Shown here: positions 16,023-32,029 of the stretch, piece by piece
Numbering within the stretch: the first letter of the stretch is position 1
Layout of the letters: every line of letters starts with the position of its first letter
Source of the DNA: an uncultured Oscillospiraceae bacterium
GTDB taxonomy: Bacteria; Bacillota; Clostridia; Oscillospirales; Oscillospiraceae
Direction of reading: 5' to 3'
DNA length: 64,000 nt
NCBI GenBank assembly: GCA_949841465.1
Contig: CATKZW010000008.1
Span: 1 to 64,000 of the forward strand
Position numbers and translations under genes: made by a program
Notes under the pieces: model-generated
Seen by the model: only the letters and a program-made list of their open reading frames with translations
What the model was told of the DNA's origin: nothing
Database searches by the model: none

Positions 16023-16286
16023 ATGCAGCATACCAAGCCGCGCCCTGCTGTCCAAGAGGCGTCTCAAGCGGCCACGGCCTACCGGGTGGTGCGCCGCTTC
16101 TGCGGGGAGCGCCGCCCCCGGGAGCTGGTCCGGGACCTGATGAGGGCGCACCCGCAAGAGCCGGGCGCCACGGAAAGGAGGGGCCGCGATGGCCCGGACG
16201 AAGCGAAACACAGCGCTCCCAGCCCCGACCCGGGCCGTCTGGCGGGCCGCGCTTTACACCCGCCTGTCCCGGGAGGACGGGGATAA
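16023..16286 (+). CDS. Small protein overlapping the recombinase start; possible recombinase accessory or directionality factor
   Basis: MQHTKPRPAVQEASQAATAYRVVRRFCGERRPRELVRDLMRAH; 98-nt overlap with 16189 ORF. Confidence 0.45.
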   Translation: MQHTKPRPAVQEASQAATAYRVVRRFCGERRPRELVRDLMRAHPQEPGATERRGRDGPDEAKHSAPSPDPGRLAGRALHPPVPGGRG

Positions 16287-17793
16287 ACCGGAGAGCGACA
16301 GCATTTCCAATCAGCGGGCCCTGCTGGAGGGCTTTGCCGCTCAGCAGCCGGACCTGCTGGTGGTGGGCCATTACAGCGACGACGGCTTTACCGGGACGAA
16401 TTTCCAGCGCCCGGACTATCAGCGGATGATGGCCGACATTGAAGCGGGAAAGATCAACTGTGTGATTGTGAAGGACCTCTCCCGGTTCGGGCGGGATTAC
16501 ATCAATTCGGGGCAGTATCTGGAGCGGTGGTTCCCGGAGCACGGAGTGCGCTTTTTGGCGGTCAATGACCACATCGACAGTGAAAAGGGCCCCTATGACA
16601 TGCTGCTGCCCTTTAAAAACGTATTTAATGAGCAGTATGCCCGCGACATCTCCCACAAGGTCAAAAGCGCCATGCAGGCCAAGCAGCGGCAGGGGCAGTT
16701 CATTGGAGCCTTTGCCTCCTACGGCTACCGGAAGGACCCGGAGGACCACAACAGGCTGCTGGTCGATCCCTGCGCCGCCGCCGTGGTCCAGCGGGTGTTT
16801 GACCTGTATGAGCAGGGGAACGGGAAAATCAGAATCGCCAAGCAGTTGAACGTGGAGGGGATCCCCTGCCCCAGCGAGTACAAAAAGCTGAACGGGGAGC
16901 GGTATCACAACGGCCGGCGGCTGGACAAAACCACCTATTGGACCTATGCCACCATCCACCGGATGCTGAAAAACCAGATGTACATCGGGAACATGGAGCA
17001 GGGCCGCGCCCCCCGGCAGACGATGCACGGCAGGGCGAAGCAGCTGGACCGCAGCCGGTGGACCGTGGTGGAGGGGACCCATGAGCCCATCATCTCCCGG
17101 CGGCAGTGGGACCGGGTGCAGGCGCTGCTGGCAAAGGACACCAGGGCCCCCGCTCTTGAGAAAACCGTCAGCCCGTTTGCGGGCTTCCTCCGCTGCGGCG
17201 ACTGCGGGCGGGCGATGAGCAAAACAAATCATCCGGGCGGCGACTGCTACTGCTGCGGGTCCTATAAGCGCTACGGCGCAGGGGCCTGCACCCGCCACGG
17301 AATCTCCCGGCGGGTGCTGGAACGCACCCTGCTGGACGACTTGAATCGGGTGATCGGGGCGGCAGGTGATTTGAAGACCCTGGCGGAGGAAGCGGCGCCC
17401 AGGCAAAGGCTCCGGAACCTGGAGCGGGAGCGGGACCGGATAAAGGGAAATCTGGAGCGGGTCTACCATCTGAAAAAGGGCGTTTATGAGGATTACCGCT
17501 CAGGTCTGCTGACTCAGGCGGACTATCTTCGCTATAAAGAGGATTACAGCCGTCAGGAGGACGCGCTGTCGCTCCAGCTGGCTCAGCTGGAGCGGGATCA
17601 GGAGGAGGGAGCCCCCGTGCCGCGCCCCTGGACCGCCGCTCTGCTGAAGCATGGGAAGCTCACTGAGCTGGACCGCACCACAATGGCGGAGGCCGTAAAG
17701 GAAATCCTGGTTTTTCAGGACGGCCATATTGAGATTACATACCTGTTTTCCGATGAGCTGGGCATTTTGAACCACCCGGATGAAGACCGCTGA
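16189..17793 (+). CDS. Large serine recombinase of element 1
   Basis: Resolvase domain ALYTRLSREDGDKPESDSISNQ...DDGFTGTNFQRPDYQRMM...DLSRFGRDY; recombinase and zinc-ribbon domains (FLRCGDCGRAM...CCGSYKRYGAGAC). Confidence 0.96.
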   Translation: MARTKRNTALPAPTRAVWRAALYTRLSREDGDKPESDSISNQRALLEGFAAQQPDLLVVGHYSDDGFTGTNFQRPDYQRMMADIEAGKINCVIVKDLSRFGRDYINSGQYLERWFPEHGVRFLAVNDHIDSEKGPYDMLLPFKNVFNEQYARDISHKVKSAMQAKQRQGQFIGAFASYGYRKDPEDHNRLLVDPCAAAVVQRVFDLYEQGNGKIRIAKQLNVEGIPCPSEYKKLNGERYHNGRRLDKTTYWTYATIHRMLKNQMYIGNMEQGRAPRQTMHGRAKQLDRSRWTVVEGTHEPIISRRQWDRVQALLAKDTRAPALEKTVSPFAGFLRCGDCGRAMSKTNHPGGDCYCCGSYKRYGAGACTRHGISRRVLERTLLDDLNRVIGAAGDLKTLAEEAAPRQRLRNLERERDRIKGNLERVYHLKKGVYEDYRSGLLTQADYLRYKEDYSRQEDALSLQLAQLERDQEEGAPVPRPWTAALLKHGKLTELDRTTMAEAVKEILVFQDGHIEITYLFSDELGILNHPDEDR

Positions 17794-17850
17794 GCCGCGG
17801 CTTCATCCGGGTTTTCTCGCCGTCCGGCGCAAAATAGCATTACCATGGGG

Positions 17851-18186
17851 CAACGAGGACACCCAGCAGCTCATTGATATCCTGGGCAAGTACAATATTA
17901 AGGCCACCTTTTTCGTGGTGGGGGAGTGGGTGGACAAATATCCGGAGTCGGTGAAGGCGCTGGCCGATGCCGGCCACGAGGTGATGAGCCACTCCAACAC
18001 CCACGCCCACTTCAACAGCCTCTCATCGGATGAGATCATCGCCGACCTGACCGCCTGCGGGGACAAAATCGAGGCGGTCACAGGGGTGAAACCCACCCTG
18101 TTCCGCTGTCCCTACGGCGAGTACGACGACCACGTCATCAACGCGGTGCGCTCTATGGGCATCGAGCCCATCCAGTGGGATGTAGA
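17851..18186 (+). pseudogene. pdaB: PdaB-type polysaccharide deacetylase, segment 2 of 3
   Basis: NEDTQQLIDILGKYNIKATFFVVGEWVDKYPESVKALADAGHEVMSHSNTH...RCPYGEYDDHVINAVRSMGIEPIQWDV; no stop or frameshift. Confidence 0.9.
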
Positions 18187-18249
18187 ACGTTCCGCAACAG
18201 CTTCAAGCCGTTGGGGCGCAAGGGGTCCGGTGGAGTATCACAGCGCAAA

Positions 18250-18290
18250 AAAGGACGGCTTCCAGCGTAGGAAGCCGTCTTTTTTGTTTG
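18250..18290 (+). terminator. Terminator-like hairpin at left end of element 2
   Basis: aaaggacggcttccagcgtaggaagccgtctttttt; near the end of the convergent ATPase gene. Confidence 0.6.
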
Positions 18291-18294
18291 ACCG

Positions 18295-19554
18295 TCAGAT
18301 GAACCAGACCGGGATTTGGAATACGTTCTCCCGCAGCTTTCCGGGCTGGGGACACAGGCAGATGAGCGCGCCATCCCCCCGCTTTTTGTCGGGCACCTGA
18401 TCCAGCACCGTGAACGCAGAAGTCTGGTCCGCCGTAACTTTGGCACTTTTCTTGATCTCAATGGGGTGAAGGATACCGTTCTCCTCAATAATTAAATCCA
18501 CCTCGCTCTCGGTATTGACCTCCACACCGTCAACCCGAGCTTTCTTTTTGTCTTTTCCCCGATAGTAGGACACACAGTAGCGGTAGTCGATCCCCTGATT
18601 GGAATAGGATTTCAGGATCTCCGAGATGACAAAAGTCTCAAACAAGGCCCCGCTCATAGCGCCATTTGCTAAGGTTTCTGGGGTGAGCCAGCGGGTCAGG
18701 TAGGAGGCCAGCCCGGTGTCCCGGAAATAGACCTTGGGCGTTTTGATGGCCCGTTTCAGCACCGAAGGTGTGTAGGGCTCCAGCAGGTAGACAATGCCGG
18801 TAGCCTCCAGCAGGGACAGCCACCGCTTCACCGTGTTGGCGTCCTTGCTGATTTCGTCGGCAATGTTGGAGTAGTTCAGCATCTGCCCTGTCCTTGCCGC
18901 CACCGCCACCATGAAGCGGCGAAAATCGTCCAGGTCTTGAACCGCCGACAACTTGCGCACGTCCCGCTCGAGATAGGTTTTCACGTAGCTGGAGAAGAAA
19001 GCTGACCACTCCACATCCTGGTTTTGCAGCTCCGGGTAGCCGCCGCGGTGAATGATCTCCCAGATGTTTTCAGGCGCCTTGGCTGTCTGGTTCCGCCGGG
19101 CGATATAGTCCAGGGTGGGGACAAAGGGTTCGTTGAACGCATCCCCGGAAATCTCCCGCAGGGACAGCCCGGACAGCTCCACGACGCACACCCGTCCGGA
19201 CAGGGACTCTGACGCGCTCTCCATCAGCTCCAGGGGCTGGGAGCCGGACAGCAGAAACCGCCCCCGCTCGTCGCTCTCGTCACACTTCATCTTGAGATAG
19301 CGGAACAGGCCGGGGGTGCGCTGAACCTCGTCCAGAAAGACCGGGGGCGGATTGAGCATGAAGAACATATCGGGATTTTCTTTTGCCTGATCTTCCACAA
19401 ACGGGTCATCCAAAGGTACGTACTTATATGAGGGGAAAAGCCGTTTTAGCATGGTCGATTTGCCGGTCTGCCGGGCCCCCGTGAGCAGGACGCACTTGAA
19501 GGTTTTGGAGGCGTGCTCCACGTATTGCTCAATGGCTCGAGGAATATAATTCAT
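18295..19554 (-). CDS. ATP-binding protein (AAA + DUF4143 type)
   Basis: VLLTGARQTGKSTMLKRLF Walker A, VFLDEVQRTPGLFRYLK Walker B, SGSQPLELMESASESLSGRV, YLERDVRKL. Confidence 0.92.
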   Translation of the reverse strand: MNYIPRAIEQYVEHASKTFKCVLLTGARQTGKSTMLKRLFPSYKYVPLDDPFVEDQAKENPDMFFMLNPPPVFLDEVQRTPGLFRYLKMKCDESDERGRFLLSGSQPLELMESASESLSGRVCVVELSGLSLREISGDAFNEPFVPTLDYIARRNQTAKAPENIWEIIHRGGYPELQNQDVEWSAFFSSYVKTYLERDVRKLSAVQDLDDFRRFMVAVAARTGQMLNYSNIADEISKDANTVKRWLSLLEATGIVYLLEPYTPSVLKRAIKTPKVYFRDTGLASYLTRWLTPETLANGAMSGALFETFVISEILKSYSNQGIDYRYCVSYYRGKDKKKARVDGVEVNTESEVDLIIEENGILHPIEIKKSAKVTADQTSAFTVLDQVPDKKRGDGALICLCPQPGKLRENVFQIPVWFI

Positions 19555-19843
19555 AGACAGCCCTCCTTGTACGGCTAATTCGGAATTTGATTCTATATTA
19601 GCCAGTATATGACCTAAGTTCCCATTCGTCAAGAAAATTATGTCGAAGGCATAGAAGCTTTGGGCCGTTGGCAGAGCGTCCGGCACATCCGCTGGCGTTT
19701 TTGGGCCGTATTTTTTCTATGAAATAGCCTCCGGCGTAAGAAAGGACAGTCTTTCTTACGCCGGAGGCTTTTATATGCCACGTAAACGGCAATGGGTGCC
19801 GCAGAGTACCGTTCACCCAATAGCCAGGCTCATTCCAGCCTGG

Positions 19844-20938
19844 TTAGATCTTATTCATAACGTATAGACGGCTTTCCACAGTTGTGTTGAGCCGGAAATC
19901 CCAGAGCACACGCATATCTGATGTGGTTCCGTCGTGCATTTGCCCTATGACTTCATCAGGAGTATCAAATTCCGCCTTTTGATAAAATAAGCAGAGCAGG
20001 GTATAGCCCCCTTCTGGATAACGGTCCTCAATTTCCGTATACCGGATTCGAAGTACATAACAGCCGGTGCTGCTATTCTTGCAGTAGCCGCATATTTTAT
20101 ATGGATGAGTTTCCCCATCCTCCTCAATGACCGCATCCTCCGTAATAGTAATCGTATGCCCGTGATCGTAGGTCCGGTATGTTCCAAACCAGTAATCCTT
20201 TTCTGCCTGAAACATAGAAGGCTCTCCGTCAACAAAGCTGCTCTCCGAAATGCTTTCGAGATTCCAAATCGTATAGGAGTCCCCACTGGCATGGGCGTAG
20301 ATGGAGGACGTACCGCCAAGATAGTAGTCCATAACAGTCATCGCGATAGTGTCATGCCAGGTAGTCTCCCCGTTGGCAGCGGTCGTGCTATATTGCTCAA
20401 TCCCGCTTATCCTGCCAAATACTGTGATCCAATCGCCTTTGATAATCGGAATATCATCATAAGCCCGTGCCGCAATAAAAAATGGATTGGTGAGGTCGCC
20501 GCGCTTGATCAGCATCACAGTTTCCAGCCCCGTGCGTTCTACGTAATCCACTTGACCGCTCATGGCAATGTTATAACCTGTGAGGCCATATGCATTTCGC
20601 AGTGCGTCATTATAAATCGCGTCAATATTATAGCCATGACTTCCGGTGACGGCCAGGTTGACGCCCTCTTTGATACACGAAAGTCGGAAATCCTGACGTT
20701 CCTCAGACATCCCGGCCTCATTGTACCACCTGCTGTCAAAGGTTTCGAGCATTTCATCCCGTGCGCTCATGATATCATCCATGGCATCATAATATTCGTC
20801 ATCGTACGGATCGACCCAATCCGATTCGTCAGGGAACTCAGGCGCAGACTGTGTTTCGTTGGAACCTACCGGGGGCTCCTGCCCGGTTGAAGCTTCCGTA
20901 CTGCATGCGTTGAACGCCAACAGTACGGCCAATGCCAT
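19844..20938 (-). CDS. Putative lipoprotein of unknown function; 5' end uncertain
   Basis: LLAFNACST lipobox-like segment; start appears truncated, see finding on the A-tract upstream. Confidence 0.6.
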   Translation of the reverse strand: MALAVLLAFNACSTEASTGQEPPVGSNETQSAPEFPDESDWVDPYDDEYYDAMDDIMSARDEMLETFDSRWYNEAGMSEERQDFRLSCIKEGVNLAVTGSHGYNIDAIYNDALRNAYGLTGYNIAMSGQVDYVERTGLETVMLIKRGDLTNPFFIAARAYDDIPIIKGDWITVFGRISGIEQYSTTAANGETTWHDTIAMTVMDYYLGGTSSIYAHASGDSYTIWNLESISESSFVDGEPSMFQAEKDYWFGTYRTYDHGHTITITEDAVIEEDGETHPYKICGYCKNSSTGCYVLRIRYTEIEDRYPEGGYTLLCLFYQKAEFDTPDEVIGQMHDGTTSDMRVLWDFRLNTTVESRLYVMNKI

Positions 20939-21002
20939 CAGTGCGCTCAGTATTTTTTATTTTACTATTCATAATTACGGCCTCCAATACTTCAAGGGTA
21001 AA

Positions 21003-22163
21003 TCAGCCAATCCCTGTGGTATTCTTATCCAGCTCAGACCGCATCATTTCCCGTATCTTTTCTTTAAAGGCATCTGTATTCCAGTCCTCCTGCTTCAGCT
21101 CTCCCCGCGCAATCAGCTCCAAAACGGTAATGTACGTCCGGCCCAGCGCGGCGGTAATCAACGCGGCGGTGCCTCCGCTCACAACGGCGCCTAAAACAGT
21201 GCCCACGCCGGGAATCAGCTTTATCGCCCCGGACACAATCGATTTGCCCGCAATGGTGGCGGCTGGAACCCCAATCAGCGCGGTCGCAATGCCTATAATG
21301 GTAGCTTTTTCAAGCTTCATGCCAAATACCGCGGTCAGGTGAGTGCACATTGCAATTTCATTTGCAATCAAAAGCGGCGCGTCCGAAAACGGAAGGGGAG
21401 ACGCCCCCGTGGCCGCGGCGCTGCCGATATAGCCCATCAAATACTTCTGAGCTGTTTTTACCTTAAGGTCAATGCTGATACCCTGGGCATTGACGAACGC
21501 TTTCTTTGCGCTGTCGGGAATGATCTGAAATGTGGCCTTCACCAGCTCCTCCAGACCAAAAGCGGGGTGTCCGGTGGGATCTTCCTCGTCCGCCTTGGCT
21601 AACAGCACATAGCAGCCCTTATACCAGCTCTGGCCGCCAATCGCGTCCTCAATGGTATCCCGCAAGACGTTGGCTACACCTTTCCGGAAGGCCTGCGTAA
21701 TGATAACTATGACCGGTACTCCAACCTCTCCAAGGGAGCACAGCGCTTTGATCCACTCCAACTCCGTGTCCTCCACGCGGTTTGTCCCGCTGTTAACACA
21801 GTACCAGATGGCGTGAATGAGCTCGTCTTGGTTTCCCTTCTTCCATTTCTCCTGAATCAGATCCTGAATCTCGCACAGGGTTTCGCTTTGGGCGTTTGCG
21901 CTGAGTTCCAGGCCCTTGGTGTCATAAATGCGCAGAGGCAGTTCATCGTCCTCATAGCAGCGAGTGCTTTTGGTAACCGGCTGCCCAACCCCAGTCCCGG
22001 CGTCTTCACTGCGGAACACAGCGTTGATCAATGTGCTTTTTCCCGCCCCGGTTTTGCCTGTCACAAGCAAATTGACGTGTCCCATGTCCTGCACCGCCTG
22101 CTCCCACTGTTTTAAAACCTTCGAAAAAATATCCTGTTCACTGTAGGTATACACTTCATCCAT
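21003..22163 (-). CDS. GTPase of the Era/YcjF-like P-loop group with hydrophobic C-terminal (DUF697-like) region
   Basis: NLLVTGKTGAGKSTLINAVF G1, YDTKGLE G3; glycine/alanine-rich hydrophobic C-terminal segment; ATG with RBS aaaggag. Confidence 0.8.
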   Translation of the reverse strand: MDEVYTYSEQDIFSKVLKQWEQAVQDMGHVNLLVTGKTGAGKSTLINAVFRSEDAGTGVGQPVTKSTRCYEDDELPLRIYDTKGLELSANAQSETLCEIQDLIQEKWKKGNQDELIHAIWYCVNSGTNRVEDTELEWIKALCSLGEVGVPVIVIITQAFRKGVANVLRDTIEDAIGGQSWYKGCYVLLAKADEEDPTGHPAFGLEELVKATFQIIPDSAKKAFVNAQGISIDLKVKTAQKYLMGYIGSAAATGASPLPFSDAPLLIANEIAMCTHLTAVFGMKLEKATIIGIATALIGVPAATIAGKSIVSGAIKLIPGVGTVLGAVVSGGTAALITAALGRTYITVLELIARGELKQEDWNTDAFKEKIREMMRSELDKNTTGIG

Positions 22164-22186
22164 ATCTGCCACGCTCCTTTTCTCTG

Positions 22187-22339
22187 TCAAAAGTGAATGT
22201 GTTTGAGGTGTTTTTCAGCAAGACGCGCGGGGATTTTCCATATTGCCCAAATTGCGGACATTGTACCGATGAATTTCATCAGCCGTACGGTATTTGAGGC
22301 GTGTTTTCTCTTTTTCGACACCGACGATTTGATTCTCAT
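22187..22339 (-). CDS. Small basic hypothetical protein
   Basis: MRIKSSVSKKRKHASNTVRLMKFIGTMSAIWAIWKIPARLAEKHLKHIHF, directly upstream of the GTPase gene. Confidence 0.4.
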   Translation of the reverse strand: MRIKSSVSKKRKHASNTVRLMKFIGTMSAIWAIWKIPARLAEKHLKHIHF

Positions 22340-22465
22340 GATGACATCCCTTCTGGTAAAAAGTTTTTCCACCTGAAATGTGGTATAAAGTCATTTTGAT
22401 CTCATATCGTATTATAACACGGGCGTTTTGAATTTACAATATAAAAAACGCTGTGAGGGATCGCC

Positions 22466-22822
22466 ATGGAAATGGAAATTGATTACGCTGCCATTGGAGA
22501 CAGAATCAAGAAATACCGCCTGGAACGCGGCCTTACACAAGAAAATGTTTCGGAGCGGGCTGACCTGACGCCGGCCCATTATAGCCACATCGAACGGGGG
22601 CACACCAAGCCAAGCCTGCCTACGCTGATCCACATTGCCAATGTGCTGAACGTCTCCATTGACGATCTGCTCTGCGATAATCTGGGCAAATCCACCCATG
22701 TACGGGTGAAGGACATCAACGAGCTGTTGGCTGACTGCTCCAGCGCGGAAACAAAGGCACTTGTAGATGTATTGACCGCCGCGAAAAAGGCCCTAAGAGA
22801 CGTGCAAAATAAAACGGAGTAG
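22466..22822 (+). CDS. XRE-family HTH transcriptional regulator
   Basis: IKKYRLERGLTQENVSERADLTPAHYSHIERGHTKPSLPTLIHIANVLNVSIDDLL. Confidence 0.92.
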   Translation: MEMEIDYAAIGDRIKKYRLERGLTQENVSERADLTPAHYSHIERGHTKPSLPTLIHIANVLNVSIDDLLCDNLGKSTHVRVKDINELLADCSSAETKALVDVLTAAKKALRDVQNKTE

Positions 22823-22859
22823 GAAGCAGGGGCAGCGCGTCAGCACAGCCCCTGCCCTT

Positions 22860-23411
22860 TTACGAAAATCCCTTTGCTTTCCGGTAAAATGTACTGGACT
22901 TCATATTCAGCCGCCGCATGGCCTCCGTTGCCGTGATCCTTCCTTCCCGCCATTGGGACACGATCTTGGGAAACTCTGGACGCTCAACAGGCTTCCGGCC
23001 CTTGTAAACACCCTTGTCCTTGGCAATGGCGATCCCCTCACGTTGGCGCTGAAGAATGTACTCCCGTTCCAGTTCGGCCACCGCCCCGAAAATGGTCAGC
23101 ATAAACTTGCCTGTGGGCGTGGTGGTGTCAATGGCCTCCTTCTGGGAGACAAACTCCACCTGCTTGCCGGCCAACTGCTCCACCAAATCCAGCAGGTCGC
23201 GGGTGTTCCGGGCAAAGCGACTGATGGACTCCACGATCACCGTATCGCCCTGCCGTACATAGGTGAGCATTTTCCGCAGTTCCGGCCTGTCCGCGTTTTT
23301 GCCGCTGGCCCGGTCTATGTAGAGTTGGTCAACCCCCAGGCTTTTCATCAAGACCTCCTGCCGGATGGTGTTCTGCTCCTGGGTGCTCACCCGGACATAT
23401 CCAATTTTCAA
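22860..23411 (-). CDS. Small serine recombinase (resolvase/invertase family)
   Basis: MKIGYVRVSTQEQNTIRQ...VIVESISRFARNTRDLLDLVEQL...GAVAELEREYILQRQREGIAIAK; C-terminal HTH. Confidence 0.94.
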   Translation of the reverse strand: MKIGYVRVSTQEQNTIRQEVLMKSLGVDQLYIDRASGKNADRPELRKMLTYVRQGDTVIVESISRFARNTRDLLDLVEQLAGKQVEFVSQKEAIDTTTPTGKFMLTIFGAVAELEREYILQRQREGIAIAKDKGVYKGRKPVERPEFPKIVSQWREGRITATEAMRRLNMKSSTFYRKAKGFS

Positions 23412-23436
23412 AATGCAACGGCCCCCCTTTCTTTTT

Positions 23437-23537
23437 TCCCAATAGGGTCGGTTTCAGAAATGGCACATGCCAAAACCCTGAAACCGACCCTATTGGGATA
23501 TTTTTTGACTGTACCGTTGTGGTACACCCTATTGGGA
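23437..23537. promoter_or_regulatory. Putative res/recombination site with three related motifs
   Basis: tcccaatagggtcggtttcag (23437-23457), its exact inverse complement (23478-23498), and a third half-site ccctattggga (23527-23537), immediately upstream of the resolvase. Confidence 0.65.
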
Positions 23538-23541
23538 CGAC

Positions 23542-24510
23542 TCAGAGCACCCCGAAGTCCGCCATGACCTCTCGAATGCAGCTCTCCCGGAACTGATCGT
23601 CGTGAATCAGCTCTTCCAAGTCCATGGCGTCATACCCAGCATCCACCAGCAATCGAAGCTCGGCCTCTGGCACTCCGTGACGCTGGCCGTATTCCATCAG
23701 CGCCTCCAAATAATCGTTATGCTCCGGCTCAACAGGTGCTGTTTGGCTGTGCCAAATCCAGTCGCAGAAATAACGCGGCCTCCATAGGTGCGTGTCATCA
23801 AACCTGGTGACAGTGCGCTGTCCCTGGGCGTCAACCGTCATGATGTCACCTTGGGTAATGGGAATGTCAGTTTGACGCAGACTGGATAACCTCAAATCAT
23901 CCAAAGTCATGTCCAGGATTTCGCCTGTGGACGCATAGAGATAGCAACCCAGGCGGGGCAGGAAGCGAATGGTCAGCGGGTTATTCCCCCGGACGAAGTA
24001 CATGGTGTTTTCAGCATCCAACACTGTGATTGTGAACGTGCCGTCCAATGACTCGGCCATCCGGGCTAAAGCGTCTGGGCACAGCCTACCGCCCCGCTCT
24101 AAAAGCTGCACCGCCACATAGCTGTCCGTCTCAATTTTTGTGGCGGTTAGACGTTGGGTATGCCGAAGCTGTGCATCATTGCAGAGTACCCCGTTATGAG
24201 CCAAGGCAAAAGATCGCTTTCCGGCCTGACCGGGGAATGGGTGGTTGTTGTAGTTTTTGGAGGCCGCGCCCTGGGTGGTCATACGGGTATGCCCCATGAG
24301 ATACCGGGCCTCCGGGGCAATCCGCCAGCGCATTTTGCCTGCGGGCCTGGGAGCTTTCTGAATTCGTATGGCCCCGCTTTGTACATAGGCAACACCGCTG
24401 GCATCAGTGCCGCGTATTTGTGCGGCATTGGCAAGCTCCCGGAACAGGGCCAGCCGCTGGCTTGGGATGAGCTTGCTCTGAAAATCCAGCACTCCGAAGA
24501 TGGCGCACAT
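23542..24510 (-). CDS. Class II glutamine amidotransferase domain protein
   Basis: MCAIFGVLDF (catalytic Cys2), RGTDASGVA, MGHTRMTTQGAASKNYNNHPF, LAHNGVLCN. Confidence 0.9.
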   Translation of the reverse strand: MCAIFGVLDFQSKLIPSQRLALFRELANAAQIRGTDASGVAYVQSGAIRIQKAPRPAGKMRWRIAPEARYLMGHTRMTTQGAASKNYNNHPFPGQAGKRSFALAHNGVLCNDAQLRHTQRLTATKIETDSYVAVQLLERGGRLCPDALARMAESLDGTFTITVLDAENTMYFVRGNNPLTIRFLPRLGCYLYASTGEILDMTLDDLRLSSLRQTDIPITQGDIMTVDAQGQRTVTRFDDTHLWRPRYFCDWIWHSQTAPVEPEHNDYLEALMEYGQRHGVPEAELRLLVDAGYDAMDLEELIHDDQFRESCIREVMADFGVL

Positions 24511-24512
24511 GG

Positions 24513-25628
24513 TTACACCTCCTCGGCAGCGGCTACGGGTTCGCTGACATAAAGCCGCCGCTCTTTGAGGTACTGCACCAGCTCCGGGGCTGTACAGCCC
24601 GCCGCAAAGTCCGTCCAGGTCAGATCCTGCATCTCCTGATCGGTCAAATAAAGGGCCACATCACAGATGCGGTCAACCATCTGCAATGTGGCAAGGAGGG
24701 TGTTGAGCTTTAACGTGCCCCGGAACATCCGGAACTCGATAGTGTTATAATTGGTCAGGTTCACGCACTTATACCGCTGATAGTGCTCCTTTTTGGCGTT
24801 ATCCAGCACCGCCTTGGGATCGTCTTTCCGGCCATACCGCGCCGCCCACTGTTCCATCTGAGAACGAGAGCGGCGGCTGAACCGCAGCAGCTCGTTCCAG
24901 TGGTTTTCTACGAAAAACAGAATACGGGCAATGACTTCCTCCCGCTCCTCATCTGCGTCGCCAAAGGCGGAACGATTGACATGAACGTGTAAGCCACAGG
25001 TACAGGCTTTGTGGCTGGTGTAGCCCATGCGCAGGGCCTCGGACACCACGTCGCCCCAGGGCATCTCGGCCATGTGATAGGCCAGCGTCATGGGATGGGT
25101 GACGATCTCCATACCGTCATCCAAAGAACCGTCGTGCTTGATGTAAATGTGCTCATGGCCGCTTCTATTAGCAACGTCCAGTAGTTGGCAGGCCCTGTCA
25201 TTCCGTTCTCCGGCCCCGTCAATCTCCAGCTCCACGCCGAAAAAGCGCCCCCCATCTCCGTAGAAAATAGGGTCGGGCTTGTAGTAATAATTGTGGATTT
25301 CCCGGTCTGCGCTCCTCAGCAGGTAGCAGTCATGGCACAGAGGGTCTTCGTCATCTGTATCATCGCTGAGATAATAGGCGCTGTCCATCGGAATTACTGC
25401 ACCGCAGCGGGTGCAGCTGGTATAGTGCCGCTCGTAGCAGTGCTCACACAGGGGGGTATCCTCGTCTCCGGCGTTATCGTCCCGCCAGATGCGCTCCCCG
25501 CAGACGTGGCACACACGTGTCTCCGTGTCCAAGCAGTGGGGGCAAAGCTCCTCATCCTCAAATGTCGTGCGCTCGTGTATCGGGTGAGGCTGCCCGCAAA
25601 TGGAGCACACGAAGGTTTCTTCTGTCAT
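24513..25628 (-). CDS. Amidoligase-family protein with N-terminal zinc-ribbon/LIM-like Cys-rich region
   Basis: CxxC/CxxH pairs at N terminus; FFGVELEIDGAG...YIKHDGSLDDGMEIVTHPMT...CGLHVHVNRSAFG...FRMFRGTLK is the amidoligase (glutamine-synthetase-like) pattern. Confidence 0.88.
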   Translation of the reverse strand: MTEETFVCSICGQPHPIHERTTFEDEELCPHCLDTETRVCHVCGERIWRDDNAGDEDTPLCEHCYERHYTSCTRCGAVIPMDSAYYLSDDTDDEDPLCHDCYLLRSADREIHNYYYKPDPIFYGDGGRFFGVELEIDGAGERNDRACQLLDVANRSGHEHIYIKHDGSLDDGMEIVTHPMTLAYHMAEMPWGDVVSEALRMGYTSHKACTCGLHVHVNRSAFGDADEEREEVIARILFFVENHWNELLRFSRRSRSQMEQWAARYGRKDDPKAVLDNAKKEHYQRYKCVNLTNYNTIEFRMFRGTLKLNTLLATLQMVDRICDVALYLTDQEMQDLTWTDFAAGCTAPELVQYLKERRLYVSEPVAAAEEV

Positions 25629-25738
25629 TGATTTTCCTCCTTGGTCAAATAGTCGATGGCCGCGCAGAGCAGCGCGGCCACAGCAGCAACGAGGACACTC
25701 AGGAGCTTATCCTGGATGCCCTTCCCTCCATCCGTCAT
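25625..25738 (-). CDS. 37-aa small membrane peptide
   Basis: MTDGGKGIQDKLLSVLVAAVAALLCAAIDYLTKEENQ; stop overlaps amidoligase start (ATGA), start overlaps previous stop (TGATG). Confidence 0.6.
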   Translation of the reverse strand: MTDGGKGIQDKLLSVLVAAVAALLCAAIDYLTKEENQ

Positions 25739-25824
25739 CACCCCAGCTTGCAGACCTTCTGGAGCATCTGATCTACAAGCTCCAGGATGATGCCCCGGAT
25801 GACCAGCAAAAGCGTTTTCAGCAT
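25738..25824 (-). CDS. 28-aa amphipathic/hydrophobic micropeptide
   Basis: MLKTLLLVIRGIILELVDQMLQKVCKLG*; coupled to the next ORF by TGATG overlap. Confidence 0.5.
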   Translation of the reverse strand: MLKTLLLVIRGIILELVDQMLQKVCKLG

Positions 25825-25850
25825 GTTTTTTCTCCGTCCTTTCTTCAAAA

Positions 25851-25911
25851 TGATAGAACACCGGAAGCTGCGTTCAGGTGAAAACCATCGGCAGCTTCCG
25901 GTGTTCTATCA
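25851..25911. repeat. 21-bp perfect inverted repeat (hairpin)
   Basis: tgatagaacaccggaagctgc (25851-25871) and gcagcttccggtgttctatca (25891-25911). Confidence 0.85.
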
Positions 25912-25981
25912 AAATAATATGTGTTTGAAAAGGGCTGGGAGGGCAAACAAGGCGCTAAATAACCAAAAGGGGGAATTTATC

Positions 25982-26194
25982 ATGCGTGACGAAGAATATA
26001 TCGAAAATCTGGAGCGGCGCAAGGAAGATCAGATGCCCATCGTGCTGACCCCGGCGGAGGTCATGGACATTTTGGATGTGGGGAAGAACACGATGTACCG
26101 GCTGCTGAACACGGGTGAGCTGCGCGCAGTCCGTATCGGGCGGAGCTGGAGGATTACCGGCGATGCCCTGGAAGAGTACCTTTTGATGAAATGA
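25982..26194 (+). CDS. Excisionase-type HTH DNA-binding protein
   Basis: LTPAEVMDILDVGKNTMYRLLNTGELRAVRIGRSWRITGDALEEYL; helix_turn_helix_17 pattern. Confidence 0.92.
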   Translation: MRDEEYIENLERRKEDQMPIVLTPAEVMDILDVGKNTMYRLLNTGELRAVRIGRSWRITGDALEEYLLMK

Positions 26195-26372
26195 CAGGGT
26201 GACAGGATGACGGGGCAAATGAAAAAGTTCTCTCAGAAGCCGATTTTGTGGCTTGTGAATACTTTTTTCAATGCCCTGTCATCCTGTCATCTCAAAATTT
26301 TGGGGCTGTGACTATGAATGATTGACAGATGTGATATCATAGAATTATGTCATTTTTACACAGATTGGAGCG

Positions 26373-27734
26373 ATGTTTATGGAGAATAGTCTTTGGGAGA
26401 TCATCACCTGTCACACGCCCATCATAGAAAACGCGCTCAACCTCGTAGAGCCCGGTTCAGATGAGGCCAGAAAATTGGGTGAGTGGGGTGAACTGTTTGA
26501 AATTCCTAAGGATAAGGGACTATCTGCAATGGCTATCATGCAGTATGTTTGTAATATTCTACTGGAATTTCCACAATTTGAATTGGGCCCCGCAAGTGAT
26601 ACATCAGCGGGAATGTTGATGAAGTACAATGATGATGAATTCCCCTTGGAAAACGGCATTGTTTATGAGATACTATATCCAAATTTGTACTGTGTACTTG
26701 CATTAGACGCGATTGGTCAGAGATGTCCCGCTGAGCCCCCCAAAACTTTGACCGCCCTTTTGGGGTTGAGCTGCGATGAGAAAACAAAACTTATTGAAGC
26801 GAGCCGTTTCTTATCAAAATACTTTCCTGAGGAGTTGAAAAATCTTTTTAGGGTGGTCAAAAGCAACGGTGCAAATAAGAATCCACCATACGAAATCAAC
26901 ACACAATTTCCAGCATTACTATCCGCCATATTAAAACACGCCCGAACTTCACCTTTGAGTGCAAAAGAATCAACGGCAAATTCCATCATCCTATCCAAGC
27001 GGTTTTACGATACCTGCATAGATGCTATCGCCCCTAATGGCATCTGGTCCAAGCGCAGTTTTGCGGAATACTACTTGTTCGAGCGGGTGTTTCGTCTGAA
27101 CGCGAAGTTTACGCTTTTCTGGGCTGAGTACAATACCTCGCAAAAAAATAAGACCGCGCTCTCTCCGAAAATACTGTCAGACTTTTTCTTTCACTCCCCG
27201 TTGGTCTTATTTCCGCAAATCGCGCAGCATCGGAAGCCCTCATTGGGCAAGGGAAAACTGTTGTTTCTATTCTACAATCAACATGCTGATTATAAGAAAC
27301 AGACAGAATTTCTACATTTTCTAATCCAATTGTCCTCCTATTGGTTTCCTATAGTTCTCAGCATTTTACGCGATTACATGAAGTATCACAACATTACGTC
27401 ATTCAGCGATGTTGAGCGGTTTTTCTTCCCTGAAAATCAAAATGAGATCGAATTTTCCAGTTTTCAGCAGACATATACTCCAGCCACAACAGAGTTTCCT
27501 GACGGCGGAAGTGAACAGGAATCCCCGGGGAACAGGCAAACCAAGCGCAAGCTGCCGCGACCGTTGACAGACGCTTATTCGCAAAATTGGTCAGCCTTTA
27601 GACCATGCTTTGACCACCATTCTAAGGCGTTTGCGCCCAAAAGCTTGGCAGACTGGAGAGATGAAGCAATCCCTGAACATGCTACAGCGGCAGACCACTA
27701 TGCCATGAACGAAATAAAGCAGACTTTGTATTAA
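26373..27734 (+). CDS. Hypothetical protein, AT-richer cargo of element 2
   Basis: 453 codon ORF with own terminator; no family recognised. Confidence 0.75.
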   Translation: MFMENSLWEIITCHTPIIENALNLVEPGSDEARKLGEWGELFEIPKDKGLSAMAIMQYVCNILLEFPQFELGPASDTSAGMLMKYNDDEFPLENGIVYEILYPNLYCVLALDAIGQRCPAEPPKTLTALLGLSCDEKTKLIEASRFLSKYFPEELKNLFRVVKSNGANKNPPYEINTQFPALLSAILKHARTSPLSAKESTANSIILSKRFYDTCIDAIAPNGIWSKRSFAEYYLFERVFRLNAKFTLFWAEYNTSQKNKTALSPKILSDFFFHSPLVLFPQIAQHRKPSLGKGKLLFLFYNQHADYKKQTEFLHFLIQLSSYWFPIVLSILRDYMKYHNITSFSDVERFFFPENQNEIEFSSFQQTYTPATTEFPDGGSEQESPGNRQTKRKLPRPLTDAYSQNWSAFRPCFDHHSKAFAPKSLADWRDEAIPEHATAADHYAMNEIKQTLY

Positions 27735-27737
27735 CGA

Positions 27738-27785
27738 GATTCCCGTGGAACTGGGCATAAGCTCATTCCACGGGAATCTTATTGT
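27738..27785 (+). terminator. Rho-independent terminator
   Basis: gattcccgtggaactgggcataagctcattccacgggaatctt. Confidence 0.75.
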
Positions 27786-27934
27786 CTGACTTTATGCGCA
27801 CGGGCTTGTATTATTTTGCACAATAATATGCGCGGCGGGATAACTGACGATTCGAGGGGTCAAGTGCTATAATTGCGCCATCAGCCGCAGCAAACGTGCG
27901 CAGGCACGAGCGCGGCAAAAAGGAGGACACTGTC

Positions 27935-28450
27935 ATGTTAAATTTCTCTTACAAACCAACACCCCTGATGGAGCAAATCGACAGGCGGCTAAACAAGAAC
28001 CATCATCCCCAAGCCTTTGCCGTTGCCGACTTTGGCGACGGCCCGATGCTGACCTACCGGGGGCGGCATAGCAGAGTAAGCCTGCTGTCCGTCTCGCTTG
28101 TCCACGGCGAACAGCACATTGAGCTCTCCCAGCTCTCCAAGCCTCCGTATCTCATTGCACTGGTTCAGGAGAAGCCGGATCAGCCTATCCTTACGGTGCT
28201 CTATCACTCGGATCCATACCCTGTGCTGGAGCAAAACACGGAGCGCCGGCTAATGGGACAGGTATTCGCTTACGGGCAGTCACAGGACGGAAGCATGCGT
28301 ACTGTTGCTCACGCTGTGTATCTCCCCGAGCACTCCGCCGTTTTCGCCGCTGCGGACAGGTGTAATTCGCTGCTCCTGGAGAGCCACCCGGAGCTATGCG
28401 GCCATCTGTGCGCCTGCGGGGAGATCATTGACAGGCTGCTCGGCCAGTAG
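27935..28450 (+). CDS. Hypothetical protein in element 2 replication module
   Basis: RBS aaaggagg; directly upstream of the helicase gene. Confidence 0.7.
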   Translation: MLNFSYKPTPLMEQIDRRLNKNHHPQAFAVADFGDGPMLTYRGRHSRVSLLSVSLVHGEQHIELSQLSKPPYLIALVQEKPDQPILTVLYHSDPYPVLEQNTERRLMGQVFAYGQSQDGSMRTVAHAVYLPEHSAVFAAADRCNSLLLESHPELCGHLCACGEIIDRLLGQ

Positions 28451-28469
28451 AAAGAACGGGGGTGATTGT

Positions 28470-30008
28470 ATGAACGATTATCCGCATGATGTTCAACAAT
28501 TGGCCGGGCGGGATGCCGCGCCAAAAAACTCCATCTTCTCTCAGTTCGCCGCCCCTATCTCAGAAGTACCGGATGTGCTGCCCGCCAATCTGATGCCATA
28601 CCGGCACTTGGACCCTGTACTGGATGACCCGTCCGCCACCGGGCCTGACTGGGATACAATTTTTGGCCGGGATCTGGAGCTTACCGACACCAAAGAGGGC
28701 CTGCGGAGTCAAAAAGTCAACCGAAACATCGCGGAAATAGCCAGTGCCATCCGTAATCGGTGTGAGTTTCTGCATATCGCCGGGCATCTGGCCGTGTTTG
28801 AACCGCCGTGCTGGAAAATCTTAGGGCACGGGGAAGCCCTTCGGTTTGTGAAAAGGGCGGCGGAAGAGCTGTTTCCCAGTGACGCAAAGTATTTGAACTG
28901 CCGACAGTACGAGGAGATCGTATCTCATCTGCGGCTTGATTTCAAAACCCCGTGCCAGAAAGAGATCCCGACTCCGGATTACCGCTATCTGTGCTGCCGG
29001 GATTATATGTATGATTGGCGCACGGGCAGGTGCCTGCCCCACAACAGCAAATACCAGTACTTCTCCTACCTCGACATAGACGCGGAATCCATTGGGTCCT
29101 GCGACGGCGCGCACTGGGAGATGTTTCTGGATGACATGACCGGGGGAGATAGCATACTGCGCCAGCGCATCCTGGAGATGCTCGGCGTCATTCTCTCCGG
29201 CTACCCCAGCAAATCGTTCTTCTTCCTGACGGGGGAGAGCGGGACGGGGAAAAGCCAGCTCGTGAACTTTTTGCGAGATGTGCTGGGCACAAGCGCCTGC
29301 GTCGCGCTGAACGACATTTCACAGCTGGGACAGAAATGGACGACAGGCTCCGTCTTTGGCAAGCTGCTCTGCCTTTGCGGGGATGTGCCCGACGCCCCGT
29401 TGGACAGCAGGACCATTGGCACAATCAAGCAGCTGACCGGTGACGACCTGATTCGGGGGGAGTTCAAATACAAGGACGCCTTTATGTTTGACAACATGGC
29501 AAAGCTGCTGTTTGTCTCCAACTACCCGCTCCGGATTCCAAATCCGGAGCGGGAACAGGCCCTGCTGGAGCGACTGGTGGTTATCCCCTGCCGAAACCCT
29601 GTGGCAAGGGAATGTCAAATTCCAAATCTTCACGAACTGCTCTACGAGGAGGCGGGTTACATCGTTGATCTGGCCATGAGAGCGCTGGCCGATCTGGATG
29701 ACAGAAATGGGGTTTTTACCTCACTGCCCGAAGATTTTGGCTGGGAACCAGCACAGGTTTCCAATATGGATCGTGCTATCATGGAGTTTGTCCATAAATA
29801 TTGTGTGCGGGAAGAAGGGGCTTCCTGCTGGGTAAGCGAGGTGTTTCAAGCATTCCAAGCTCACTTTCCCGAGGAAAACCTCCGGGACTCGCAGTTCAGT
29901 AAGGCGCTCTTACGCCTGTTCCCGGAGGTGAAAAAGGTGCGCAGCAGCAGCGGGAGAAAGTACAACGGCCTGTGTCTGGCGGAAACCGACTATGGAAACC
30001 CGTCATAG
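28470..30008 (+). CDS. Phage/plasmid primase-helicase, D5/DUF5906-like P-loop ATPase
   Basis: FFLTGESGTGKSQLVNFLRDVLG Walker A, LCLCGDVPDAPLDSRTIGTIKQLTGDDLIRGEFKYKDAFMFDNMAKLLFVSNYPLRI. Confidence 0.9.
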   Translation: MNDYPHDVQQLAGRDAAPKNSIFSQFAAPISEVPDVLPANLMPYRHLDPVLDDPSATGPDWDTIFGRDLELTDTKEGLRSQKVNRNIAEIASAIRNRCEFLHIAGHLAVFEPPCWKILGHGEALRFVKRAAEELFPSDAKYLNCRQYEEIVSHLRLDFKTPCQKEIPTPDYRYLCCRDYMYDWRTGRCLPHNSKYQYFSYLDIDAESIGSCDGAHWEMFLDDMTGGDSILRQRILEMLGVILSGYPSKSFFFLTGESGTGKSQLVNFLRDVLGTSACVALNDISQLGQKWTTGSVFGKLLCLCGDVPDAPLDSRTIGTIKQLTGDDLIRGEFKYKDAFMFDNMAKLLFVSNYPLRIPNPEREQALLERLVVIPCRNPVARECQIPNLHELLYEEAGYIVDLAMRALADLDDRNGVFTSLPEDFGWEPAQVSNMDRAIMEFVHKYCVREEGASCWVSEVFQAFQAHFPEENLRDSQFSKALLRLFPEVKKVRSSSGRKYNGLCLAETDYGNPS

Positions 30009-30064
30009 TCCCTCAACCCAGCCGCATATTATTCCAATGAGACTTTGATAAGGAGGGACAACCC

Positions 30065-30211
30065 TTGTACATCCAACATATGCATCCCACCGCTGAAACA
30101 CCGGAGGCAACGACGGAAGCGCTGTCCGCCCTCTACCGTGCCTGCGTCCGCAAGCTGCACGCGGCAGCCTGCCCACCCCAGCGCGGGACTCCCGCGCCCA
30201 ATGCCCAATAG
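30065..30211 (+). CDS. Small hypothetical protein (48 aa, TTG start)
   Basis: aaggagg SD upstream; open to TAG at 30209. Confidence 0.35.
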   Translation: MYIQHMHPTAETPEATTEALSALYRACVRKLHAAACPPQRGTPAPNAQ

Positions 30212-30245
30212 CGTCTAAGCCCTAAAGAGAAAGGAGGTATCCGCC

Positions 30246-31703
30246 TTGGACGCAATCTATGCCCGTCAGTCTGTGGACAAGGCGGACAGCCTCTCTATTC
30301 AGGGACAGATCGACCTGTGCCACAGAGAAACAGGAGAGGAGGTAAAAATCTATCAGGACAAAGGCTTCTCCGGCAAAAACACCAATCGTCCGGCGTTCCA
30401 GCAGCTGATTGAGGACGTGGAAAAAGGCATCATCCAGAAGATCGTGGTCTACCGCCTGGACCGCTTTTCCCGCTCCATCGCCGATTTCGGGCGGCTCTGG
30501 GAGATCCTGAAACGGCATGGAGTGGAGTTTGTCTCTATCAACGAGACCTTTGACACCTCCACCCCCATGGGCCGGGCCATGCTGAACATCATCATGGTCT
30601 TTGCCCAGCTGGAGCGGGAAACCACCGCCGAGCGGGTGCGGGACAACTACTACCAGCGGGCCAAGCTGGGCTCCTGGCCGGGTGGTCCCGCTCCCTACGG
30701 CTTCACCATCGGACGGCTGCCCGGAGCGGACGGCCACCTGGCCCCCGGCCTGGTCCCTACGGAAAACATTGCCGTTGTGGAGCGTATCTTCTCCGCCTAC
30801 GCGCTACAGGCGGCCACCCTGGGCAGCGTGGCCCGTTCGCTGAACGCAGACGGTATCCCTGCCCCCCGGCGGGCCACCTGGGATAATGTAACACTGTCCC
30901 GCTTATTACATAGCCCGCTGTACGTGATGGCGGACGAGGACATCTATCTCTATTATAAGGCAAAGGGTCTGCAATTTGCAAATACTTTAGAGGAATTTGA
31001 CGGAATTCACGCCGGAATGATTATTGGCAAGCGGGACCGCAGTGCAAACAAGTATCAAGATCTGAAAGACCAGCACTTTTCCCTGGCAAGTCACTCCGGC
31101 ATCATTCCCTCAAAGCTGTGGCTTGCCTGTCAATATAAGCTGGACGAAAACCGCCAGCTGGGCAATGCGGGGCGGGGCAAGCACACTTGGTTGTCTGGAT
31201 TGATGAAGTGCGCAAGCTGTGGGTACAGCGTCAAAGTCAACCGGGACAAAGAGAAATTCTACCTGTTTTGCAGCGGGCGTTCCAACATGGGCGTGTGCAG
31301 TCAGTCTATCCACGTTGATTTGCGTGGCCTGGAACGCTCGGTGGCCGCAGAGCTGGAGCGCCTGCTGGCTCAGTGCCCAGACGAGGCGGTCCAATCCCAG
31401 GAGGGACAGGAGCTGGCCCAGGAGCTATCCGCCATCGACCAGAAGATCGAGCGCCTCATGTCCGCCCTGGCCGAGAGCAGCGACGTGTCCATGCCCTACG
31501 TCAACCGCACCATCGCCCGGCTGGAGGAGCAGCGTCAGGCCCTCTTGGACGAGCAGTCCAAACGCCAAGCCCGGCCCCGTCCCAAGCTGGAGCACCTGAG
31601 ATTTGAGCCGCTGGAGTTTGAGCAGAAAAAGCTGGTGGCCGCTCAGTTCATCCAGGAGATCCGCCTGGCGGACGACACCGCCACCGTCCTATGGAAGGTA
31701 TAA
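30246..31703 (+). CDS. Large serine recombinase of element 2
   Basis: IYARQSVDKADSLSIQGQID...GFSGKNTNRPAFQQLIEDV...YRLDRFSRSIADF; recombinase zinc ribbon LMKCASCGYSV...FCSGRSNMGVC; TTG start with SD aaaggaggt. Confidence 0.95.
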   Translation: MDAIYARQSVDKADSLSIQGQIDLCHRETGEEVKIYQDKGFSGKNTNRPAFQQLIEDVEKGIIQKIVVYRLDRFSRSIADFGRLWEILKRHGVEFVSINETFDTSTPMGRAMLNIIMVFAQLERETTAERVRDNYYQRAKLGSWPGGPAPYGFTIGRLPGADGHLAPGLVPTENIAVVERIFSAYALQAATLGSVARSLNADGIPAPRRATWDNVTLSRLLHSPLYVMADEDIYLYYKAKGLQFANTLEEFDGIHAGMIIGKRDRSANKYQDLKDQHFSLASHSGIIPSKLWLACQYKLDENRQLGNAGRGKHTWLSGLMKCASCGYSVKVNRDKEKFYLFCSGRSNMGVCSQSIHVDLRGLERSVAAELERLLAQCPDEAVQSQEGQELAQELSAIDQKIERLMSALAESSDVSMPYVNRTIARLEEQRQALLDEQSKRQARPRPKLEHLRFEPLEFEQKKLVAAQFIQEIRLADDTATVLWKV

Positions 31704-31705
31704 CG

Positions 31706-31746
31706 CGCAGAGTCGAACCAAAAATTCGACTCTGCGTGTTTTTCAA
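31706..31746 (+). terminator. Rho-independent terminator after element 2 recombinase
   Basis: cgcagagtcgaaccaaaaattcgactctgcgtgttttt. Confidence 0.8.
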
Positions 31747-31779
31747 CTTTTTTCGCCATGAATTCATCAAGGAAAGTGA

Positions 31780-32029
31780 CAGCCTGGACTGGAAAGACCT
31801 GTCCGCGTCGGAGATCACCAAGCGGGTGACCTCCAAGGTTCAGCCTGGCTCCATCGTGCTGTTCCACAACGCCGCCCTCCACACGCCGGAGGCTCTGCCC
31901 GGCATCATTGAAGCAATGCTGCAGCAGGGCTATACCTTCGTGCCCATCTCTCAGCTCATCCTGCCTGGGACCTGCGGACAGGATTATACCATCGACCACA
32001 CCGGGCGGCAGTGCCCCGGCGGGGCGTGA
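31780..32029 (+). pseudogene. pdaB: PdaB-type polysaccharide deacetylase, segment 3 of 3
   Basis: (D)SLDWKDLSASEITKRVTSKVQPGSIVLFHNAALHTPEALPGIIEAMLQQGYTFVPISQLI...*; continues segment 2 in frame. Confidence 0.88.

Follow-up and report, generated by a model that had tools for sequence, protein, structure and literature searches.

Gene pairs encoding an Amidoligase_2 ligase (PF12224) and a class II glutamine amidotransferase (GATase) were reportedly predicted in phages and mobile elements by Iyer et al. in 2009. A similar combination occurs in the ergothioneine pathway, in which EgtA is a GCS-fold ligase and EgtC an enzyme of the Ntn class II GATase fold. Ligase domains homologous to the one described below, with about 30% identity, are found in gp105 of Mycobacterium phage Marvin and in amidoligases of C. 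difficile plasmids. A role in superinfection has been proposed for phage amidoligases (PMC11318856), and gamma-glutamylcyclotransferase/AIG2-like genes are listed beside other mobile-element amidoligases (PMC3485107; PMC11318856). MurT-GatD is a co-transcribed ligase/GATase pair that amidates peptidoglycan; MurT has a Mur-ligase fold and GatD is a GATase of the CobB/CobQ type (PMC3267633). We found no paper reporting a substrate for mobile-element amidoligase-GATase pairs.

The window, the whole 64,000-nucleotide stretch of DNA analysed here, contains such a pair as the last two genes of a four-gene operon in an integrative element of a gut bacterium:

18187..31779, whole integrative element, 13.6 kb, interrupting a pdaB-like sporulation gene at a GA dinucleotide
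25738..25824, minus strand, pep1, first gene of the operon; 28-aa cationic amphipathic micropeptide, MLKTLLLVIRGIILELVDQMLQKVCKLG, recognised by its ORF and conservation
25625..25738, minus strand, pep2, 37-aa single-transmembrane micropeptide, MTDGGKGIQDKLLSVLVAAVAALLCAAIDYLTKEENQ, with the core LLAAAAALLCAAIDY.xKE; translationally coupled to pep1
24513..25628, minus strand, amidoligase, 371 aa; predicted GS/GCS-like carboxylate-amine ligase with six N-terminal CxxC pairs resembling LIM-like zinc ribbons
23542..24510, minus strand, GATase, 322 aa; predicted class II (Ntn) glutamine amidotransferase that carries a helical extension at its C-terminus

The first-pass annotation had placed all four ORFs exactly and had described their junctions correctly: TGATG joins pep1 and pep2, ATGA joins pep2 and the amidoligase, and 2 nt precede the GATase. 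Its identification of an amidoligase and a class II GATase also stands, the two genes forming an intact pair within the 13.6-kb element. The operon resembles the pairs of the 2009 prediction in ligase family, GATase class, gene adjacency and mobile-element context, but differs in its array of six CxxC pairs, its two conserved micropeptides, a covarying leader hairpin and the sharing of the peptides with unrelated cargo. The Marvin and C. difficile amidoligases, by contrast, have other zinc-binding N-termini or none and different neighbours, and pep1/pep2 were not found upstream of them. With MurT-GatD the window pair shares the two-gene logic of a ligase plus a glutamine amidotransferase, whereas neither protein matches its counterpart in fold or type. 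With EgtA-EgtC it shares the combination of a GCS-fold ligase and an enzyme of the Ntn class II GATase fold, the likeness to EgtC coming from Foldseek, but the element has no other Egt genes and the window GATase is nearer in sequence to GlmS/PurF. We favour, at a probability of roughly 55%, a reading in which a glutamine-dependent ligase is co-expressed behind a conserved pair of amphipathic and transmembrane micropeptides that would act at the membrane on behalf of the element; these functions are read from sequence.

The amidoligase and GATase genes are close to inseparable, the gap between them lying between -1 and +4 nt at 44 of 46 loci. The amidoligase scored 39.2 bits against PF12224 (cut-off 22, residues 166-318), and its motif residues ELE, DGS, HxH and TxExRxF were invariant. 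An AlphaFold2 model built from eight rows reached moderate confidence overall (pLDDT 72), with its lowest values in several ligase-domain loops; in a Foldseek search of the PDB it matched YbdK (E 1.8e-5), glutamine synthetase (GS) and PafA, with low TM-scores to YbdK and GS (0.3-0.4). Foldseek matched the N-terminus to LIM domains. This is the multi-CxxC region already singled out as unusual on first inspection, and its six CxxC pairs were nearly invariant across the family. Searching solved structures by amidoligase sequence gave no credible match. Profile score, motif residues and model fit an Amidoligase_2 member of GS/GCS-like fold, for which ATP-dependent formation of an amide bond is predicted. 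The GATase matched the profile PF13522 (E 8e-14), was nearest by sequence to the GlmS/PurF glutaminases and was placed by Foldseek with PurF, GlmS and EgtC. All class II catalytic residues (C2, R76, N106, G107 and D129) were invariant in 30 sequences, and with its N-terminal Cys, Arg, Asn-Gly oxyanion and Asp, together with an adjacent synthetase partner, the protein fits class II. PADLOC returned no credible defence-system match for the enzyme pair, and no viral contig carrying a close amidoligase was found.

Relatives were drawn from named genome contigs and from whole genomes belonging to the same family, order or class or to selected genera; the peptide pair was present at 29 non-redundant loci. 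Both peptides showed more synonymous than nonsynonymous change when eight independent close pairs were compared, a pattern of purifying selection (pep1, pN/pS 0.39, Fisher p 1.8e-7; pep2, pN/pS 0.30, p 2.1e-15). Because they recur upstream of diverged amidoligases and are under purifying selection, pep1 and pep2 are genuine genes and not chance ORFs. A lack of conservation of the micropeptide frames had been named beforehand as what would refute the first-pass annotation, and when this was put to the test the frames proved conserved. Nearly all pep1 members keep ML, L6 and (I/L)R, and at most loci the peptide forms a cationic amphipathic helix (helical moment 0.49, p 0.01). In pep2, residues A18, A22, C25, I28 and D29 are invariant within a core A...A..C..ID; a mean hydropathy of 2.3 over 19 aa corresponds to one transmembrane segment, and the tail is rich in Glu/Asp. 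Neither peptide had a credible family in Pfam or NCBIfam or a match in PHROGs, and no characterised example of the pair was found in the open-access literature. Searches with pep2 found no carriage of the peptides in viral contigs, phages or plasmids, although their power is low for 37 aa. Two conserved micropeptide families of this kind provide a testable genetic context for the enzyme pair.

The coupling of the genes had been taken at first to suggest that the peptides are substrates or dedicated partners of the enzymes, a claim that the distribution of peptides and cargo does not support. Behind the peptide pair lay an amidoligase-GATase pair at 21 of the 29 loci (two with a truncated amidoligase and three with an intervening DUF3846), a DUF932-YqaJ recombination operon at six, where both identities were confirmed, and neither at two. 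On the enzyme side, 28 of the 47 close amidoligases (330 aa or longer) placed in a tree were without the peptides, and the linkage changed about 8 times, of which well-supported branches force at least 4. A sensitive HMM scan reaching up to 1.5 kb upstream of the amidoligases recovered the peptides at every positive locus, with scores below 9 bits elsewhere. Asp29 of pep2 was equally invariant in loci without an amidoligase. Furthermore, an HTH gene and usually a resolvase accompanied the peptide pair across cargo types. Cargo swapping and patchy linkage ruled out dedicated substrates as the leading model, and the peptides probably do not serve the enzymes in that role. Thus, of the original proposal of a peptide-modification system, the conserved, coupled micropeptides and the intact enzyme pair survive, but a dedicated substrate or partner role is not supported. 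The peptides look instead like a leader module within an element backbone that runs from the HTH gene through the peptides and a variable cargo to the resolvase, the commonest cargo being amidoligase-GATase. Some functional tie between peptides and amidoligase may nevertheless exist, since an amidoligase is present at most of the peptide loci. Given that cargo is exchanged behind the same peptides, experimenters should not presume that these are the substrate.

Stand-alone multi-CxxC (LIM-like) domains were observed beside other cargo (L047:9422-9736, L049:1418-1765 and L050:9439-9804). L047 is a DUF932 locus that keeps a stand-alone LIM-like protein, which hints that the peptides and the zinc array may act together.

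Upstream of pep1 lie three further features, of which the hairpin and the TATTAT box were absent from the earlier annotation:

25851..25911, minus strand, perfect 21-bp inverted repeat forming a 5' leader hairpin, starting 2 nt past the -10-like box
25914..25919, minus strand, TATTAT -10-like box, at a spacing similar to that in relatives
25982..26194, plus strand, divergent HTH_17/excisionase-type DNA-binding protein (PF12728 E 4e-16, TIGR01764)

The HTH gene was found upstream of pep1 in almost all relatives. The window hairpin is strong (dG -41.3, z -8.9), and at least 21 of 28 peptide loci have a hairpin whose arms measure about 15-25 nt and which begins 2-12 nt past a TAT(T/C)AT box, often with T-rich sequence after it. 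Among eight comparable loci, 7 of 16 pairs had changed on both sides, 95% of cells pair and 0 of 500 shuffles matched this; the stem was defined from the same eight-locus sequences, so that slid controls somewhat favour the hairpin and the double changes are the direct evidence. Because the hairpin follows the box so closely, we infer that the transcript begins about at the hairpin, which may act as a leader terminator or a 5' stabiliser. Rfam gave nothing beyond sub-threshold microRNA matches to inverted repeats, which we judged to be chance. By eye, hairpins also occupy the same place in some peptide-less amidoligase operons. Promoters of peptide loci share a conserved upstream motif, TTATTTAACACCTTGTTTG or GTTTGGCGTTAT (for example, in window 25914-25980), more than 17 nt from the -10-like box, a spacing that suggests a regulator-dependent promoter.

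Under the favoured reading of a co-expressed ligase and membrane peptides, the locus would consist of two units. One would be the bicistronic module of pep1 (amphipathic helix) and pep2 (transmembrane helix), part of the element backbone and expressed first, from a divergent promoter, on a transcript that would open with the strong conserved hairpin. The other would be a two-subunit enzyme, conserved in sequence and predicted to be active. Its Ntn glutaminase, with Cys2 as the nucleophile after removal of Met, would bind and cleave glutamine; ammonia or a gamma-glutamyl group would be exchanged between the GATase and the GS/GCS-fold amidoligase; and the amidoligase would activate a carboxylate with ATP to form an amide. 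The LIM-like zinc array would probably dock a substrate or partner, and the amidated target might lie among cell-wall peptides, host proteins or small metabolites. As they also precede alternative cargo, the peptides would most likely be a membrane-associated accessory to, or regulator of, the element's programme of expression or establishment rather than a dedicated substrate.

Four other explanations were weighed against this. Were pep1 and/or pep2 ribosomal precursors, with the amidoligase-GATase amidating or extending their Asp/Glu side chains or C-terminus, one could account for the tight translational coupling in the window, for the 21 peptide loci with an amidoligase and for an invariant Asp in pep2, a natural amidation acceptor, beside a Glu/Asp-rich tail. 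That Asp is still kept, however, at the six loci with DUF932-YqaJ instead, and more than half of the amidoligases (28 of 47) lack the peptides, so that the strict co-occurrence of precursor and enzyme seen in RiPP-like systems was not found here; nor did profile searches of the operon and of the element genes examined yield a protease, a transporter/exporter or a leader/core signature. We regard this explanation as quite improbable. A gamma-glutamyl cycle like that of EgtA/EgtC in ergothioneine synthesis, in which the amidoligase, as is usual for GCS-fold ligases, would produce gamma-glutamyl amides and the Ntn protein would act as a gamma-glutamyl hydrolase or transferase and not as an ammonia donor, seems to us unlikely, if possible. 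It is consistent with the Foldseek proximity of the ligase to YbdK and of the GATase to EgtC (also to PurF/GlmS), and with the gamma-glutamylcyclotransferase/AIG2-like neighbours of mobile-element amidoligases elsewhere, but GlmS/PurF glutaminases are the closest sequence matches of the GATase, and the element showed no further genes for ergothioneine or glutathione.

Superinfection exclusion by cell-wall modification would have the pair amidate peptidoglycan or its precursors, functionally like MurT-GatD, while pep1/pep2 tether or sense at the membrane. The precedent of MurT-GatD, the role suggested for phage amidoligases and the membrane peptides of the operon all point this way; yet we found no relation to MurT/GatD in sequence or fold, and we consider the proposal, with its putative wall substrate, rather doubtful. 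The micropeptides might also be unrelated to the cargo and constitute a small toxin/addiction module, a membrane-active pair under leader-hairpin control that stabilises the element. Their small size, their cationic amphipathic and transmembrane character, their conservation whatever the cargo and the strong leader hairpin would all suit such a module. We give it little credence, as neither an antitoxin gene nor an antisense RNA was identified, no known type I toxin family matched in Pfam, NCBIfam or PHROGs, and the peptides are coupled to cargo as in an ordinary operon.

How pep2 is started varies among loci. The pep2 of the window, like that of about a dozen relatives, has a GTG/ATG start overlapping the pep1 stop; an alternative GTG at -4 of that stop (GTGA) is the sole start in several relatives. 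No suitably placed in-frame ATG/GTG/TTG was present in L042, L043, L045, L046, L051, L076, L077, L107, L115, L116 or L119. Most of these loci have a strong SD with an in-frame ATC/ATT/ATA close by, and most have an out-of-frame ATG about 10 nt past the SD that opens a three-codon ORF (ATG ATA AAC TGA, ATG GTA AAA TGA or ATG CGA CAG TAA). Conservation of this decoy ORF is weaker evidence than it appears, because much of it follows automatically from the conserved NDKL of pep2. AUH initiation or frameshifting could explain the start-less pep2. Two routes were not adopted: read-through of the pep1 stop into pep2 would be in frame in L042, L045, L046, L077 and L115, whereas L076, L116, L119 and the coupled loci have the two genes in different frames, and for -1 slippage within the mini-ORF no slippery sequence in common was seen by eye. 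Natural variants pose a concrete translation question in the pep2 start codon. It is conceivable, though we advance it only tentatively and think it unlikely as a whole, that pep1 and pep2 form an uncharacterised, bicistronic system of membrane micropeptides in integrative elements of the Oscillospiraceae, with control by a leader hairpin at +1, non-canonical pep2 initiation in several lineages (an AUC/AUU/AUA start or a -1 shift around the three-codon decoy ORF) and interchangeable enzyme cargo, most commonly amidoligase-GATase.

The element's ends were set by split alignment against a related gene in L045, which is unbroken across the junction; the interrupted pdaB-like gene was recognised by TIGR02764. 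Other features of the element are:

30246..31703, plus strand, putative integrase of the large serine recombinase type, at the element's right end (PF00239, PF07508 and PF13408)
28305..30008, plus strand, P4-family primase-helicase (TIGR01613, 108.9 bits, cut-off 108.7)
22860..23411, minus strand, small serine resolvase that closes the module (PF00239), its downstream position conserved in relatives
23437..23537, res-like or operator region with three TCCCAATAGGGT / ACCCTATTGGGA repeats, two of them inside a 21-bp perfect inverted repeat

Lying just upstream of the small resolvase gene, the repeats at 23437-23537 are likely a res site or operator. No relaxase was found among the element genes examined. 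The pdaB-like sporulation deacetylase gene (16189-18186 and 31778-32029) has been interrupted twice, the 13.6-kb element being one hit; a second large serine recombinase (16189-17793) lies on sequence that interrupts its N-terminal side. The same pdaB-like gene is adjoined in L045 by a peptide-amidoligase element whose recombinase is homologous (65%) to this second one; the gene is possibly a skin-like sporulation-gene target. The interval separating the HTH gene from the replication genes holds, at 26200-26289, a 36-nt imperfect inverted repeat with TGACAGGATGACAGGG motifs, a possible origin or terminator. Further cargo of the element, at 18295-19686 and 21003-22190, comprises a DUF4143 ATPase, which matched the PADLOC candidate PDC-S01 (E 1e-100), and a GTPase weakly similar to LeoBC.
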